From the NCBI GenBank assembly GCA_016744135.1, contig JADGEX010000002.1, positions 124,001-188,000 on the forward strand: DNA of 64,000 nucleotides, written 5' to 3'. Each line of letters opens with the position of its first letter. The stretch's first letter is position 1. The stretch comes from Pseudodesulfovibrio sp. (GTDB lineage: Bacteria; Desulfobacterota; Desulfovibrionia; Desulfovibrionales; Desulfovibrionaceae). The position numbers and the translations under genes were made by a program. Below are positions 45,442 to 62,280 of the stretch, in pieces. Under the pieces are notes generated by a model. That model was not told where the DNA came from and made no database searches. It worked only from the letters and a program-made list of their open reading frames with translations.

Positions 45442-47160
45442 TCAGGCTGGGGCAGTCTCGACGTGAGGAATGGTGAAGGAGACGCGGGTCCCTTTGCCGG
45501 GATGACTAATGATGGAGAGCATATGTGACGGGCCGTAAATCTGCTCCAGTCGCTGGTTGCAATTGCGCACGCCAATGTGGTCTTCCCCGGAGAATTCGTT
45601 TTCGCTGTTCAGGACGCTCCAAAGCGTGGCTTCGTTCATGCCGACACCGTCATCTTCGATGTGGACATGTACCAAATTGTTGTCCCGTCCGATGCGGATG
45701 CGAATGGTCCCGCCGTCATCGCGGCCCAGAATGCCGTGTTTGACGCTGTTTTCTACCAGAGGTTGGATAATCAGGGTCGGAACTTCGATGTTTTCCACGC
45801 CGTCGTCCAGATTCCATTCACTTTTTACTCGGTCACCGAATCGGGCCTGTTCGATTTCCAGATAGGAACGGACCTGTTCCAGTTCTGAACCGATGGGCGC
45901 GAAGCCGTCTCCCGCATCGAGATTGCGGCGCATATACATTGCCAGTTCGGATAGGAGCGAGCGTGCCCGTTCCGGTTTGGTACGACAGAATGCGCCGATA
46001 GTATTCAGGGCATTGAACAGGAAATGCGGGTTGATCTGGGTCTGCAAACGTCGAATTTCCGCTTTGGCGAGCAATTGATTTTTTGTCTGGATATCCTGTA
46101 ATTCAAGCTGTGTTGAGAAGAGTCCTGCAAGGCCTTTAGCCAGTTCAAAATGGGTGGTGTGCAACGGGATACCGTCGGTTCCGTAGAATTTAAGACACCC
46201 TACGATGCGGTTGCCTTTACGCATGGGGACGATGACGGCCGATGTAAGCGGACAGTTCGGATCATCACATCCAATGGCCTCTTTGGAACGAAGAAAGGCT
46301 GGTTTTCCTGACAGGAGGACTTTCTTGGTGGCTGTGGTTCGTAAAGGTTCGCCGGGGAGATGGTGGTCGTCGCCAATTCCCAGATGCGTCAGGACTTTGG
46401 TGTTGCTGGCGATGTCAACGGCGGCGACAGGGACGCGTTCCCAGATGATTCGGGCGGTTTCCAGTGCAGAGGCTTCATCCAGACCGGATCGAAGGTGGGC
46501 CACGGTCTTGTTGGCGATGGCCATAATCTGACTGATGCGGCTGGAATCGCGTTTGCTCCGGTATTCAAAAAGCAGGTGCAGGGTCTGCACGAACAACACC
46601 GCGCCGAACGTGTTCACCGCGATCATTGGCAATGCGATGACTTTGACCAGATCTACGGCTTGATCAAAAGGTTTGGCCATGGTCAAAACCATCAACTGGT
46701 GCATGGTTTCACCCCCCAAACCAACAAAGAGTGCGGCTCGCCAGTTGAGATTGTTACCCTTGAGGTGAATGGAAACATAGCCAGCTATGATACCTTCAAG
46801 GAAGGTCGCCAGCCCACAGGGGAGGGAGCTGAACCCGCCGATATCGATAAGCAATCGATGGCCGCCAGCGATAAGACCTGCTCCAAAGCCTACAAGGGGG
46901 CCGCCGAGCAGTCCGCCAGTGATGACATAGACACCGCGCAAGTTGGCGTACGAATCAAAGACAATGTCGCCGCTGTAGGTGCCCATGATGCCAAGCATGC
47001 CAAACAGCACAGCTAACAAGATTCTGTATTTCTTTTCAGGGCGGCGATTTACGCCGAGTTTGCCCAGCGGAGACAGCGTCAGTACGAACAGGCCGATGGC
47101 CATCATGGCACCGAATCGGCCAATCAGTGTGACCAGAAGATCGAGAATGTGTTCAAACAT
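45442..47160 (-). CDS. LytS/BtsS-type sensor histidine kinase
   Basis: This 572-residue membrane sensor has an N-terminal 5TMR-LYT domain of six to seven helices (about 1-190), a GAF domain (about 210-350), a HisK domain with QINPHFLFNALNTIGAF near 375 (His acceptor) and a HATPase domain ending near residue 568. In the related BtsS and YpdA systems the ligand is pyruvate. It lies 21 bp after the regulator gene and 192 bp before cstA. Confidence 0.92.
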   Translation of the reverse strand: MFEHILDLLVTLIGRFGAMMAIGLFVLTLSPLGKLGVNRRPEKKYRILLAVLFGMLGIMGTYSGDIVFDSYANLRGVYVITGGLLGGPLVGFGAGLIAGGHRLLIDIGGFSSLPCGLATFLEGIIAGYVSIHLKGNNLNWRAALFVGLGGETMHQLMVLTMAKPFDQAVDLVKVIALPMIAVNTFGAVLFVQTLHLLFEYRSKRDSSRISQIMAIANKTVAHLRSGLDEASALETARIIWERVPVAAVDIASNTKVLTHLGIGDDHHLPGEPLRTTATKKVLLSGKPAFLRSKEAIGCDDPNCPLTSAVIVPMRKGNRIVGCLKFYGTDGIPLHTTHFELAKGLAGLFSTQLELQDIQTKNQLLAKAEIRRLQTQINPHFLFNALNTIGAFCRTKPERARSLLSELAMYMRRNLDAGDGFAPIGSELEQVRSYLEIEQARFGDRVKSEWNLDDGVENIEVPTLIIQPLVENSVKHGILGRDDGGTIRIRIGRDNNLVHVHIEDDGVGMNEATLWSVLNSENEFSGEDHIGVRNCNQRLEQIYGPSHMLSIISHPGKGTRVSFTIPHVETAPA

Positions 47161-47181
47161 AATGTCCCGGAGGTCGGCGGT

Positions 47182-47955
47182 TTATAAGCCGAGTCGTTTC
47201 TTGAATTCTTTGACGCGGCCTCGGCTCAGGGTGACTTCGGTTGAGCCGTCGTCGTCAAGGATAAGGCAGTACTTGCCGCCGGTCCACGGTGTGAATTCCC
47301 GGACGTGATTCAAGTTGACCACGGTGCTGCGATTGATACGCAGGAAAGGTTGTGAAGCGACCCGTTCCTCTACCTCGTCAAGAGATGTCAGGGCGTGGCA
47401 AAGGAGGCTTTCGTCGAGCGTGTTGACCATGATTTTGCGTTCTTGCAGTTCAAAGTAAACGATATCTGTAAAATCGATGAATTGAATTCGACCATTTCGT
47501 TCCACCGTGAAGCGGGGGAGAGGTCGGTCGCTGGAAACCGTCTTGAGCAGGTCGCCCAACTCTGGCTGGGGGTCAGTTGCCTTATCCTGTTTTTCGAGTA
47601 TCTCGCGGACTCGTTCAACGCTTTTTTTGAGTCGTTTGGCTGAAACGGGTTTGAGGAGATAGTCCACGGCATTTTTCTCAAAGGCCCGGACCGCGTATTG
47701 ATCGTAGGCGGTTACAAAAATGAACAAAGGAGGGTTTGGTAGATATCGAGCCTCGCGCAACACATCAAACCCATCGTGGCCCGGCATCTGGATGTCCATG
47801 AATACGAGGTCCGGTGATTCATTACGGATGGCCGTCAGTGCTTCGCCAGCGGTTTGTGCCTCCTGAATGTCGAGATCGGGAAAGCTGGCCAGCAGGTAGG
47901 CTAACTCGTTGCGGGCCGGGGCCTCGTCGTCGACTATCAGAGTACGTATTTGCAT
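47182..47955 (-). CDS. LytR/AlgR-family response regulator
   Basis: This 257-residue regulator has a receiver domain with LVFMDIQMPGHDG (phospho-acceptor Asp near 54) and a LytTR DNA-binding domain (about 155-255, RNGRIQFIDFTDIVYFELQERK and FLRINRSTVVNLNHV). ATG 47955 gives the family start MQIRTLIVDDE; a longer in-frame start at 48015 adds an unrelated 20 residues. It precedes lytS. Its likely target is the cstA promoter. Confidence 0.92.
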   Translation of the reverse strand: MQIRTLIVDDEAPARNELAYLLASFPDLDIQEAQTAGEALTAIRNESPDLVFMDIQMPGHDGFDVLREARYLPNPPLFIFVTAYDQYAVRAFEKNAVDYLLKPVSAKRLKKSVERVREILEKQDKATDPQPELGDLLKTVSSDRPLPRFTVERNGRIQFIDFTDIVYFELQERKIMVNTLDESLLCHALTSLDEVEERVASQPFLRINRSTVVNLNHVREFTPWTGGKYCLILDDDGSTEVTLSRGRVKEFKKRLGL

Positions 47956-48053
47956 GGCGGCAACAATGGTCCTGAAGTTTTCATTTTTAACGGTGAAAAC
48001 CCTATTCCAGCCCATGCCTCCCTGTCAATTCCGCCTGTTGTTGGCGCTATTGA

Positions 48054-49742
48054 TCATTTTTTCCAGTATGGATGACTTATATCTTCAAAAGCCGACATGG
48101 CTGCGATGGACCCTTCGCCAATGGCCGTGACGATTTGTTGCAAGCCTCCTGTAAGGTCTCCGGCGGCATAAACACGCGGCAGGTTGGTGCGCATGTCGGA
48201 TTCGACTTTGACGAAGCCGTCTTCTTTGAGTTTCACGCCAAGCGATTGTGCTAGCCCGGTAGAGGCTTCCTGTCCGATAGCGACGAATGCACCGTCCACC
48301 GGCATGTCGGTCACTGCGCGGGTCATGAGGTTCCTAATCTTGAGGTTGTTTACCCGTCGTCCGTCACCTTCGATTTCTTCAACCACGGTATTCCAGAGAA
48401 TGGGAATTTGTTCGTGGTTTACGGAATCCTGAAGAGGTTTCTGTGCACGGAAGGTGTCGCCTCGATGGATGATGCTGACGTTGACCCCGAGGTTTTTGAG
48501 ATGCAGGGCATCGGTCAAGGCTGTGTTGCCGCCTCCGATGATGGCCACTGACTTCCCTTTGTAGAGATACCCGTCACAGGAAGCGCAATAATTGATGCCG
48601 CGACCGAAATACGTGTCCTCACCTACAGCACCGAGTTTGCGGTATGTCGCGCCGGTCGTCAGAATGAGGGCCTTGGCGGAATAGACACCTCGACTGGTCG
48701 TTACGATGATGGTTTCGCCTTCTTTCATATTACCCATTTGAATGGCGTCGACGCTTTCTCCTTCATGTACAGGGAGATATTCGCGAGCATGTTCGCTCAT
48801 GATGTCCATGAGTTGTTTACCGGGAACAGAAACAAATCCCGGATAATTTTCGACAATCGGTGTCAATGCCACCTGACCGCCGACGATATGCTTTTCCAGT
48901 ACTACGGCCTTGAGACCTGCCCGGACCGCGTAGATGCCTGCGGTCAATCCCGCGGGGCCTGCCCCAACGATGACGAGGTCGACTTCGCCGGGTTCAATGG
49001 TTCCGTAGCCGGAGGGCGTTTTGCCTTCTTCCATGCCGGGAAGACTGCCTTCGGCGAGCATGTCCTCTGCGGATTTGAGATAAACCATTTCCACAACAAA
49101 TCGTTCTTCGGGTAAGAGCCCCATGACATCATGGGCTCCCTCATTGAAGATGGTATGTGGAACAGAACCGACGCCGTAGCGTTCCGTTAATTCAGGGTTT
49201 TCACTCATTTCGATACATTCGGCCTTGATTTGGCCGGGTTTTGCGATTGCGCATTTGATAGCGGACATGACCTGTCCGGGACAGTATGGTCAGGTTGGCG
49301 CGACAAAAACTTGAACCAATCGTTCGTCTTTGAGTTGTTCAAGGAGGGGAGTGGACATGTCAGACAGTCCGCTTTTGCCCAGCGAGACGAGCATGATGGC
49401 AGTGATGAAGGATTTTCCTTCTTCACCGATAGGCGCACCCAGAAAGCGGATATGGTAATCGTCGGGATTGACGCACAAGGTGGGCGAGGCTGTCACTTCC
49501 AGTTCTTTGGCGCGGTCGGAATCAATTTCATAACCGGTCACCAATATCTTGTCGGTCAGTCGAGCAAGATCCCAGCAGAATTTGGCTGTGTAGTCAGAGA
49601 ATTCATCATTGACACCGGGCTGGGTGAAAACTTCCAGTGACACAGAGCCTTGGAGCGTCTTGAAGGTTTCGGTCAATTGCTTGCGAACATCGGCAGGCAG
49701 GAACCAGTCGTCCTTTGTATCGTCTTTGAACAGGGGAGCCAT
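48054..49742 (-). CDS. Selenocysteine-containing AhpF/thioredoxin-reductase-like fusion (UGA = Sec151)
   Basis: Two open frames in the same phase are separated only by one TGA (49292-49290). Read through, they give a 562-residue protein. Residues 1-230 form two thioredoxin folds as in AhpF/PDO proteins: the first has lost its CXXC, and the second has AP-T-U-P-Y-C-P at 148-155, so selenocysteine takes the place of the first active Cys. Residues about 245-560 are a thioredoxin-reductase module with VGAGPAGLTAGIY (FAD), NYCASCDGY (redox Cys pair) and IIGGGNTALTDA (NAD(P)H). The NADPH-type HRRD motif is altered to HRGD. A perfect SECIS hairpin follows the UGA, and selC is in the same window. A conventional caller would split it in two. 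Confidence 0.88.
49262..49278 (-). promoter_or_regulatory. Bacterial SECIS element
   Basis: On the minus strand CGGACA-GGTCA-TGTCCG forms a 6-bp perfect stem with a 5-nt loop that begins GGU. It starts exactly 11 nt after the UGA. Stem length, loop GGU and spacing match the known layout for SelB binding in E. coli fdhF. Confidence 0.85.
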
Positions 49743-49839
49743 GGATCACCTCGTATTGTCTGTGCTGGATGAAATTCCTCTATTTATAAAAATATGTGAG
49801 CTGGGTGCACGAGTCAAGTTGGTATAAGAATCGGATTTG

Positions 49840-53540: not shown

Positions 53541-54926
53541 TTACTTTTTGCCGAAGATCTCCACAGGTCTCGTGGTATCACCGCCCGTATTCGGGAAGTC
53601 GGGATACTTATAGGCCTTGGTGTTGGTCTCGATTAGATGACGCGCTTCTTCCATGAATTTGTTGTAGCGATGTTTGCATTCATAGAATCCGTGCCACCAT
53701 GCGTAGTCCGGGGCCATCATGGCAGAACCCATGCGAGCACGACGGCCTTCATGATGCCAGAGTTCGTAGTACTCGACTTCCAGCCCTTCATCGAAGAACT
53801 TGGACTTATCAAGCAGACCCTTTTCGTACAATTCGTCGAGGACCTTCTTGGCTGGTTTGAAGTATGCTTCGTTGTATTCTTCAACAGCCTTGTCGGTTTG
53901 GGCGTAATGGTCATCGATCCATGCCGTACCATGGCATTGCCTGCAGATGTCTTTCATCTTGTCGCGTTCAACTTTCCAATCGGTTCCCGATGGGAACGGT
54001 TTGAAGTCCTGCGGACGAACGGTCAGCGGGGCTTGAAGTTCCCAGGAGAGACGTTCAGTCACATCATGGGTGGTCGGCTGCTTGCCTGCACCTGACATAT
54101 GACAGGACGCACAGGTCGGAGCACGGTAATCCACACCGGGGGTCCATGCGCCAGGAGCAGAGTCAAAGTTATACTCGTGCTTGAAGGCCTGATAGATATC
54201 GCCATGTTTTGATTCGTTGTAGATTTCGATTTGCGGATGATCTGGGCCGAGATGGCACTGGCCGCAGGTTTCGGGCTTACGAGCTTCCATGACTGAGAAA
54301 CGATGGCGAGTATGACAGCTGGTACAGCTACCAAGGCTTCCATCGAGGTTCAGGCGACCGACACCTACGTTGGGCCAAGTTGTCGGATCGAGTTTGCCGT
54401 CCTTCATTTTGAGCACGGTGCCGTGACAGTAGTAACAACCTGTCTTGCGTTCGTTGTCGGAATTCATGCCTTTGTTCAGCCATGGGTCAAGCTTCCACAT
54501 GATCTCAATGGTGTTGGCGTGTTTGCTCTTGGCGTATTGTTTGGCTTCATCAGGATGACAGCGAGAGCAGTCTTTAGGTGTGACGGGAGAGGCGATAGGG
54601 ACGAAATACTGTTTTTCACCCATGGGCATATCACCCTTGGAGTAGTATTTTTCATGGTCTACCGCGATGTCCTGATCGCCGGGTTCGGCCTGGTGGCAGT
54701 CCAGGCAGGTAATCCCAGCCGATGCATGACGGCTCATTGCCCAGTCTGCAAAGATGCCGGGAGTTTCCTGTTTATGACATTCGATGCAAGCTGTGCCCTG
54801 AGGCGGTATGGCTCGGTCCATGCGGAATTCCCGTACTTTGGGGAAATTCTGTGCCCCGGCCATAGCAATGGACAGGAGCATGACCGCCATGATCATGGCG
54901 AGAAAGAGACTCAGTCGTCTATGCAT
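53541..54926 (-). CDS. Octaheme cytochrome c of the hydroxylamine oxidoreductase (HAO) family
   Basis: This 461-residue periplasmic protein has a signal peptide ending near AMAGAQ and eight CXXCH heme motifs (CIECH, CLDCH, CSRCH, CYYCH, CTSCH, CGQCH, CASCH, CRQCH). The C-terminus with YYELWHHEGRRARMGSAMM and WWHGFYECKHRY is typical of the epsilon-type Hao family. These enzymes reduce nitrite or hydroxylamine rather than oxidising the latter when the crosslink Tyr is absent. ATG 54926 has AAGGAGGG upstream; an earlier in-frame start overlaps the partner gene. It pairs with the NapC-type gene 13 bp upstream, its likely electron donor. Confidence 0.85.
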   Translation of the reverse strand: MHRRLSLFLAMIMAVMLLSIAMAGAQNFPKVREFRMDRAIPPQGTACIECHKQETPGIFADWAMSRHASAGITCLDCHQAEPGDQDIAVDHEKYYSKGDMPMGEKQYFVPIASPVTPKDCSRCHPDEAKQYAKSKHANTIEIMWKLDPWLNKGMNSDNERKTGCYYCHGTVLKMKDGKLDPTTWPNVGVGRLNLDGSLGSCTSCHTRHRFSVMEARKPETCGQCHLGPDHPQIEIYNESKHGDIYQAFKHEYNFDSAPGAWTPGVDYRAPTCASCHMSGAGKQPTTHDVTERLSWELQAPLTVRPQDFKPFPSGTDWKVERDKMKDICRQCHGTAWIDDHYAQTDKAVEEYNEAYFKPAKKVLDELYEKGLLDKSKFFDEGLEVEYYELWHHEGRRARMGSAMMAPDYAWWHGFYECKHRYNKFMEEARHLIETNTKAYKYPDFPNTGGDTTRPVEIFGKK

Positions 54927-54939
54927 TCCAAACCCTCCT

Positions 54940-55512
54940 TTAGATACCCAAGTTCGGCAGCCCTGTCGCCCGGTAAGGAGCGGCGAACTGCTTGTAGTCG
55001 TAGAATTGCCTGTCTTTGTGCACGAGGTCTCGATGGCAGTCGGTGCAGCGGTACTCTTCGCCTCCATTGGCATAGAGAACCCTGCGATGTGCCAGCATGG
55101 CCCCTCGCTTGTCAGGCATGTGCAGCAGGTTGCGATGGCATTTCATGCATTGGTCATTTTTCATTGTTGACCAGATGCGCTTCTTCATGACGGTTCGATC
55201 ATAGCTTTCGGCTCCGCCCGTAAAGTGGGCGAAAACGTCTTTTAGTCCGTGAGCTGTCTTGGCAAAGAAGAAATCGTATGTGTCCTGTGGTGCAGGCAAG
55301 TGGCAGTCCATACAGTCGGCCACGAAGCCTTGCTCATTGTTGACATGGGTCGATGTCTTCCAGGCCATGACCGCCGGGCGGATTTCATGACAAGAGCCGC
55401 AGAACTCCGGGGTCGAAGTCCTGACCATGGTGTAGTAAGTCATACTGAAGAGCGGAAATGCGATCAGAATGCCGCACAAAACCAACAGAATCGACTTGGT
55501 TTTTCGCTCCAT
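54940..55512 (-). CDS. NapC/NirT-family tetraheme cytochrome c
   Basis: This 190-residue membrane-anchored quinol dehydrogenase has one N-terminal helix (ILLVLCGILIAFPLFSMTYY) and four CXXCH motifs (CGSCH, CMDCH, CMKCH, CTDCH). NapC-type proteins pass electrons from menaquinol to periplasmic partners; here the octaheme HAO-like protein encoded next is the obvious one. It is the first gene of the two-gene operon. Confidence 0.9.
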   Translation of the reverse strand: MERKTKSILLVLCGILIAFPLFSMTYYTMVRTSTPEFCGSCHEIRPAVMAWKTSTHVNNEQGFVADCMDCHLPAPQDTYDFFFAKTAHGLKDVFAHFTGGAESYDRTVMKKRIWSTMKNDQCMKCHRNLLHMPDKRGAMLAHRRVLYANGGEEYRCTDCHRDLVHKDRQFYDYKQFAAPYRATGLPNLGI

Positions 55513-62186: not shown

Positions 62187-62280
62187 TGGCGGAAGCGTAC
62201 AGGAGTCGAACCTGCCCAGGACATCACTGCCCAACATTGGTTTTGAAGACCAAGCGCCACACCGGTGACGAAACGCTTCC
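62187..62280 (-). tRNA. selC: tRNA-Sec (anticodon UCA), encoded CCA
   Basis: The 94-nt gene on the minus strand begins GGAAGCGT and ends ACGCTTCC-G-CCA, giving the 8-bp acceptor stem specific to bacterial tRNA-Sec. The anticodon arm TTGGT-CTTCAAA-ACCAA has anticodon UCA, which reads UGA. A long variable arm follows and a T-arm with TTCGA lies before the acceptor. It inserts selenocysteine together with SelB at SECIS-bearing UGAs, such as that at 49290 in this window. selA, selB and selD are not in view. Confidence 0.95.

Follow-up and report, generated by a model that had tools for sequence, protein, structure and literature searches.

A probable selenocysteine-containing fusion of a PDO-type domain with a thioredoxin reductase module in Pseudodesulfovibrio

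A single reading frame interrupted by one in-frame UGA

The locus described here, on a 64,000-nucleotide stretch of Pseudodesulfovibrio sp. DNA (the window), is, judging from its sequence, very probably one selenoprotein gene that encodes a fusion of a PDO-type domain, itself made up of two thioredoxin folds, with a thioredoxin reductase module, in the domain order of AhpF. The coding sequence is a 562-residue frame on the minus strand (49742..48054) in which a TGA at codon 151 (49292..49290) is the sole interruption. Read as selenocysteine (Sec), this codon lies in the peptide context FVAPTUPYCPGQ and yields the motif U-P-Y-C in place of C-P-Y-C, as had been described in a first-pass annotation made from the sequence alone. 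The list of open reading frames (ORFs) divides the gene in two, 49742..49290 (150 aa) and 49268..48054 (404 aa), both in the same frame, and the locus would thus be a case of a plain ORF list splitting one enzyme into two genes. The accompanying proposal that both halves build a single domain also holds, as the ATG of the 404-aa ORF (49268) falls within the second thioredoxin fold, and within the putative SECIS hairpin described below, and orthologues with cysteine at codon 151 run uninterrupted as one ORF. A Shine-Dalgarno-like GAGGTG, read by eye, is located 5′ of the ATG at 49742 (49747..49752, minus strand).

Architecture and relationship to AhpF and PDO proteins

Pfam matches to the protein are Thioredoxin_3 and Pyr_redox_2. 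The PDO-like domain spans residues ~14–224 (49071..49703, minus strand) and contains two thioredoxin folds, the first without a CXXC and the second with UPYC, while the FAD/NADPH thioredoxin reductase module spans residues ~253–554 (48081..48986, minus strand) and harbors a C-A-S-C redox pair, C386 and C389 (48576..48587, minus strand), that is invariant in alignment A2. The top NCBIfam models include TrxR, AhpF_homolog, AhpF and PDO, and for none of the 25 models listed, of 100 matched, does the protein reach the curated cut-off: 317.1 bits against 343.45 for thioredoxin reductase (TIGR01292), 164.4 against 185 for PDO (TIGR02187) and 277.5 against 502.9 for AhpF (TIGR03140), the latter profile being matched over residues 15–555. 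A profile of the N-terminal region finds its best match in PDOs of known structure (1a8l, 2ayt), with AhpF matched too. For the whole chain, the predicted model (pLDDT 83.7, pTM 0.52) matches best the fold of E. coli AhpF (4o5q; 554 columns, 26% identity), with an rmsd of 23.6, which indicates that the domains in the model are placed differently from those of AhpF or are unsurely placed.

With a two-fold N-terminal domain, a thioredoxin reductase module and one redox pair in each, the protein has an AhpF-type layout. Thus, the first-pass designation of an AhpF/thioredoxin-reductase fusion is upheld in domain order and in best whole-chain fold match, but not by the AhpF model, whose curated cut-off lies far above the score obtained. 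The two proteins also differ in that Sec here replaces the first active-site cysteine; residue 151 occupies what we take to be that cysteine's position in AhpF. The absence of a CXXC from the first fold, which had been singled out, is real but not special: the 15 other rows of alignment A1 likewise lack it, as does the first fold of AhpF, and the distant locus L112 keeps it. With the PDOs of known structure the protein shares two thioredoxin folds and the closest sequence match of its N-terminal part, and differs from them in carrying a reductase module and in having a first fold without a CXXC.

The first-pass annotation had left undecided whether this architecture was already reported, and the answer is divided. 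According to the accessible passages, selenoprotein catalogues already include the Sec form of the PDO-type N-terminal domain as a family (PMC1794560, PMC13188914), and this form has been reported from Asgard archaea (PMC11227280); the NCBIfam name PDO_seleno_TRX, among our matches, likewise suggests that Sec in a PDO-type domain is known there. As far as those passages go, the catalogued family has Sec as the first residue of UxxC, as here, and, compared by name and model, covers only the N-terminal domain, which in the present protein is joined to a thioredoxin reductase. No fused Sec form turned up in the literature searched, which consisted mostly of papers outside subscription, and automatic annotation in protein databases may already read through the codon. 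Searches on Pseudodesulfovibrio selenoproteins or selenocysteine returned nothing on this gene, and AhpF is not mentioned in the accessible passages on the Desulfovibrio vulgaris thioredoxin reductase (PMC5627308). The gene would extend a known family of selenoproteins by a form fused to a flavoprotein.

A possible electron path and its substrate

In AhpF, electrons pass from NADPH to FAD, on to the reductase cysteine pair and then to the N-terminal redox pair. By analogy, a likely path in the present protein can be proposed. SelB, guided by the hairpin just past the UGA, would insert Sec at residue 151; NADPH would reduce FAD and FAD the C386/C389 pair, which would pass its electrons to the Sec151/Cys154 pair, and the latter would reduce a disulfide or selenenyl-sulfide of a target, plausibly a peroxiredoxin. 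A peroxiredoxin is a reasonable candidate for the substrate, and the enzyme may have a repair role after oxygen exposure.

The genome of the window contains a peroxiredoxin-like gene, L213 (G000:C51:1529400-1531600), whose peroxidatic position is occupied by an in-frame TGA (FTFVUATEIS), with the hairpin UCUGCGGUCGCAGA after this codon; its product is likely a second selenoprotein in the same genome. The genome also contains a second peroxiredoxin-like gene without a stop, in the region of G000:C51:2254554, and neither passes the AhpC cut-off. Peroxiredoxin-like genes with a TGA are listed in seven of nine genus genomes asked. The distributions of the Sec peroxiredoxin and the Sec reductase do not coincide: the former is present in G022 and G018, in which the reductase has cysteine, and is not listed in G025 and G020, in which the reductase has TGA.

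These data bear on an alternative to which we assign a chance not far short of even, namely that the protein contains Sec but is not a peroxiredoxin reductase, acting instead on disulfides generally or as a PDO-like system. The sequence proximity of its N-terminal domain to PDOs of known structure points in that direction, as do the AhpC searches: no gene in the 12 genomes asked passes the cut-off of 272 bits, and, while scores of 205.7–215.3 bits were obtained in all nine genus genomes asked, those in three genomes of f23, another family of the phylum, all three with the Sec fusion, are at most 34 bits, with no hit in G179. Nor is a clear operon partner found among the flanking ORFs of 153 oriented loci, a set that includes duplicates and many loci with 1.5-kb flanks. 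On the other side stand the domain order and whole-chain fold, which match AhpF best, and the peroxiredoxin-like genes, one with a TGA, in the genome of the window.

The largest cluster of neighbors in the flanking ORFs, an upstream PAS/GAF/GGDEF gene, has 17 entries, of which at least 14 are named, those all from the genus, with L001 and the window standing for one gene. A cluster comprising 12 loci crosses lineages, lying on either side of the gene and mostly on the opposite strand. Just downstream in the window (45442-48015, minus strand) are a LytS-like histidine kinase and a LytTR response regulator, and a LytTR regulator stands beside the gene in six neighborhood entries, among which the window and L001 again represent the same gene. 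A multihaem c-type cytochrome-like protein is encoded at 53541-55073 (minus strand).

A hairpin that recurs after the UGA codon

The stem of 6 bp with a GGUCA loop that had been noted 11 nt past the UGA is present as described. This putative SECIS upper hairpin, CGGACA[GGUCA]UGUCCG (49278..49262, minus strand), has its first base 11 nt and its loop 17 nt from the UGA. The bacterial SECIS model, as given in the accessible passages of PMC13188914, comprises a loop of 3–9 nt, a stem of 4–16 bp, a G in the first two loop bases, a spacing of 16–37 nt and a minimum free energy of at most −7.5 kcal/mol. The window hairpin fits, with a loop of 5 nt, a stem of 6 bp, G first in the loop, a spacing of 17 nt and −7.9 kcal/mol. 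Its score was reached, though, in 777 of 20,000 random synonymous recodings of the same peptide; folding z-scores are −1.61 and −1.86 for the two stretches that form the hairpin, and another structure (z −0.92) is preferred by the stretch 49294..49248, in which bases of the UGA are included. Alone, the hairpin is weak evidence, and the claim rests on comparison across genomes.

In that comparison, a model-conforming hairpin with its loop 16–19 nt from the codon follows 8 of 13 TGA copies and 2 of 134 cysteine copies (Fisher p 1e-8, uncorrected for kinship); when the full model spacing is permitted, the counts are 8 of 13 and 4 of 134. Only contiguous stems were considered; L182 is included, and ten more-or-less identical cysteine copies and L117 are dropped as duplicates; an earlier count, which left out only two duplicates and lacked L182, gave 8 of 12 versus 2 of 143. 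Within f23, the hairpins differ by a two-sided pair change, CCGCAGC/GCUGCGG versus CCACAGC/GCUGUGG.

Five of the 13 TGA copies do not pass under these strict settings, namely L014 and L018 from the genus, the stand-alone L110, L137 and L182. L137 has GGGCC[AGGU]GGUCC, which at −6.5 kcal/mol misses the limit of the model, and in L182 AGCA[GGU]UGCU sits atop a bulged CCCC/GGGG stem (−8.6 kcal/mol over 36 nt). For L110, L014 and L018, the strict test revealed no comparable hairpin after the TGA. L014 and L018 may depend on a weaker element or on one of another kind, or may be in decay; some putative bacterial SECIS elements do fall outside the model, according to the accessible passages of PMC13188914. 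An unusual run, GTT ATG AAC, which could pair with itself, occurs in both L014 (G020) and L018 (G001).

TGA and cysteine codons exchange among orthologues

Full-length orthologues numbered 40 in the relatives search of 60 genomes, 31 from the genus and nine from the order, and codon 151 is TGA in seven of them and TGC or TGT in 33. In a search of 36 genus genomes, the gene was present in 32, with a TGA in eight and no stop in 24, and no match was found in G003, G004, G026 and G029. All eight TGAs sit at the same codon, one of them in another assembly of the window's species. When the window gene is compared with four TGA orthologues, synonymous changes exceed other codon changes in each of the three parts examined, on both sides of the UGA, the weakest excess being that against L013 before the UGA (51 to 44). 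A candidate TGA copy in G234 (L109) was rejected, as its frame is broken and its motif reads CPYC, and a single-protein scan of genome contigs found no relative.

These comparisons make it very improbable that the TGA is a real stop, which would mean that the gene has decayed or that the locus encodes two short proteins, 150 and 404 aa long. Such a stop would agree with the two listed ORFs, each of which has an ATG, and with L014 and L018, in which the TGA stands without a model-conforming hairpin. Against it, the same single TGA occupies the same codon in eight genus genomes with no other in-frame stop, constraint continues downstream, and the second ATG lies inside both a fold and the hairpin. 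Homologues ending near residue 150, which had been named beforehand as the outcome that would speak for a stop, were not what the orthologue set returned: the cysteine orthologues run through as single ORFs. An assembly or sequencing error that turned TGC or TGT into TGA needs only one base, and cysteine is the commoner state, but the TGA recurs across species in separate assemblies, and in another assembly of the same species, mostly with a hairpin, which leaves this explanation a negligible chance. The selenoprotein reading first put forward is supported by cysteine at the UGA position of orthologues, protein-like change past the UGA, the recurring hairpin and the Sec machinery.

Selenocysteine machinery in the window genome and its relatives

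The genome of the window contains selA, selB, selC and selD, which removes the objection that the absence of selA, selB or selD would have raised. The tRNA-Sec gene, selC, lies in the window itself, as had been noted, at 62187..62280 on the minus strand (Rfam, 78.7 bits; gathering score 47). Among the 60 genomes of the relatives search, tRNA-Sec is over the cut-off in 59, barely so in G050 (47.3 versus 47 bits) and not in G029, and selB in 58, the two others being G008 and G029, both 82% complete. All nine genomes queried for selA and all 13 queried for selD also score over the respective cut-off, and selD contains a TGA in each of the 13. Of 14 well-known genomes used as controls, five passed for tRNA-Sec, two for selB, one for selA and two for selD. 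The selD of the window genome (L204, G000:C51:2324234-2325163) has its own in-frame TGA (AAGUAAK), after which CTCCAG[GGGAC]CTGGAG was read by eye.

This distribution also qualifies a check that had been suggested for the selenoprotein reading, cysteine at the UGA position in relatives lacking selC. Cysteine is indeed found there in 33 of the 40 orthologues, but its carriers mostly keep selC, and the use of selC-lacking relatives as a control was dropped, the gene being present in almost every genome of the relatives search. With the machinery so widely retained, the pattern in these sequences is one of Sec/Cys exchange among Sec-using organisms.

Probable repeated gain and possible loss of selenocysteine

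TGA fusions fall in four separate places on the family trees. A phylum search of 395 genomes, drawn evenly from the larger group, identified TGA copies in f23 (L086, L090 and L096; the gene is present in three of five f23 genomes). Among 81 loci read, the motif is CPYC in 78 and a TGA is present in three, L117 of the window's species, L137 and L182, the last two from a search that took the best 80 of 223 relatives. L137 comes from a Desulfovibrio MAG (QZKZ01000216.1) whose contig ends within the gene, covers 40% of the alignment columns and belongs to a genome with tRNA-Sec and no selB over the cut-off; L182 is from Bacterium BMS3Bbin05 (BDTO01000003.1) and has the motif UPLC. In a tree of 144 rows, for which the motif was masked and which lacked L182 and still included duplicate cysteine loci, 11 Sec rows need six changes, of which the starred branches force four. 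On a 55-row tree with L182, nine Sec rows need five changes, all forced, and the grouping of L182 with f23 is rejected (p-AU 5e-8).

Within the genus, L012 and L016 have TGC at the codon yet retain hairpin codons identical to those of the window, GGA CAG GTC ATG TCC, a run that among the 40 orthologues is found in these two cysteine copies and in the TGA copies L001, L008, L009 and L013; in L010, CTG replaces ATG. L016 and the TGA copy L013 are sister sequences (support 100/100). In clade tests on 25 of the 31 genus orthologues, with both groups named after an earlier tree had been seen, monophyly of the in-genus Sec copies is rejected (p-AU 1e-11), and that of the seven hairpin carriers is not (p-AU 0.075). 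As the exact hairpin is kept beside a cysteine codon, these sequences suggest that Sec was lost in L012 and L016 and the hairpin left behind; the opposite direction, with the hairpin present before Sec, is also compatible with them. Remnant SECIS elements are described, in the accessible passages of PMC1794560, in cysteine proteins descended from selenoproteins, FdhA and HesB-like. As there, a cysteine codon is followed in L012 and L016 by an intact SECIS-like hairpin; the present case differs from those passages in its protein family and in occurring within one genus with Sec and Cys sister species. Closely related species therefore offer Sec, Cys, and Cys with a retained hairpin, a set that allows a direct test of the benefit of Sec to a disulfide reductase and of the gain and loss of Sec codons.

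A tetranucleotide AGGU at nt 17–20 past the codon is present in 12 of 13 TGA copies and 59 of 134 cysteine copies. We tentatively raise the idea, for now the weaker side of the bet, that the site is Sec-prone: in Pro-Tyr-Cys-Pro-x-Gln-Val, CAG GTN spells AGGU at the distance of a SECIS loop, such that few flanking changes would give a hairpin, and the resulting enzyme may feed a Sec peroxiredoxin. If so, it would explain the uptake of Sec by the fused reductase in at least four lineages with differently registered stems, as well as reversion to cysteine within one genus that leaves fossil hairpins, and it would imply a possible selenium-to-selenium electron relay from NADPH to a Sec peroxiredoxin. 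Three Nitrospirota cysteine copies (L168, L173 and L175) carry CCAGC[AGGU]GCUGG, with five pairs, at SECIS distance; at −6.8 kcal/mol it misses the limit and they were not counted as fossils, though they are possibly fossils or pre-adapted sites. In G352 (L110, around 1389), a stand-alone PDO frame with UPYC follows a reductase-like frame on the same strand.
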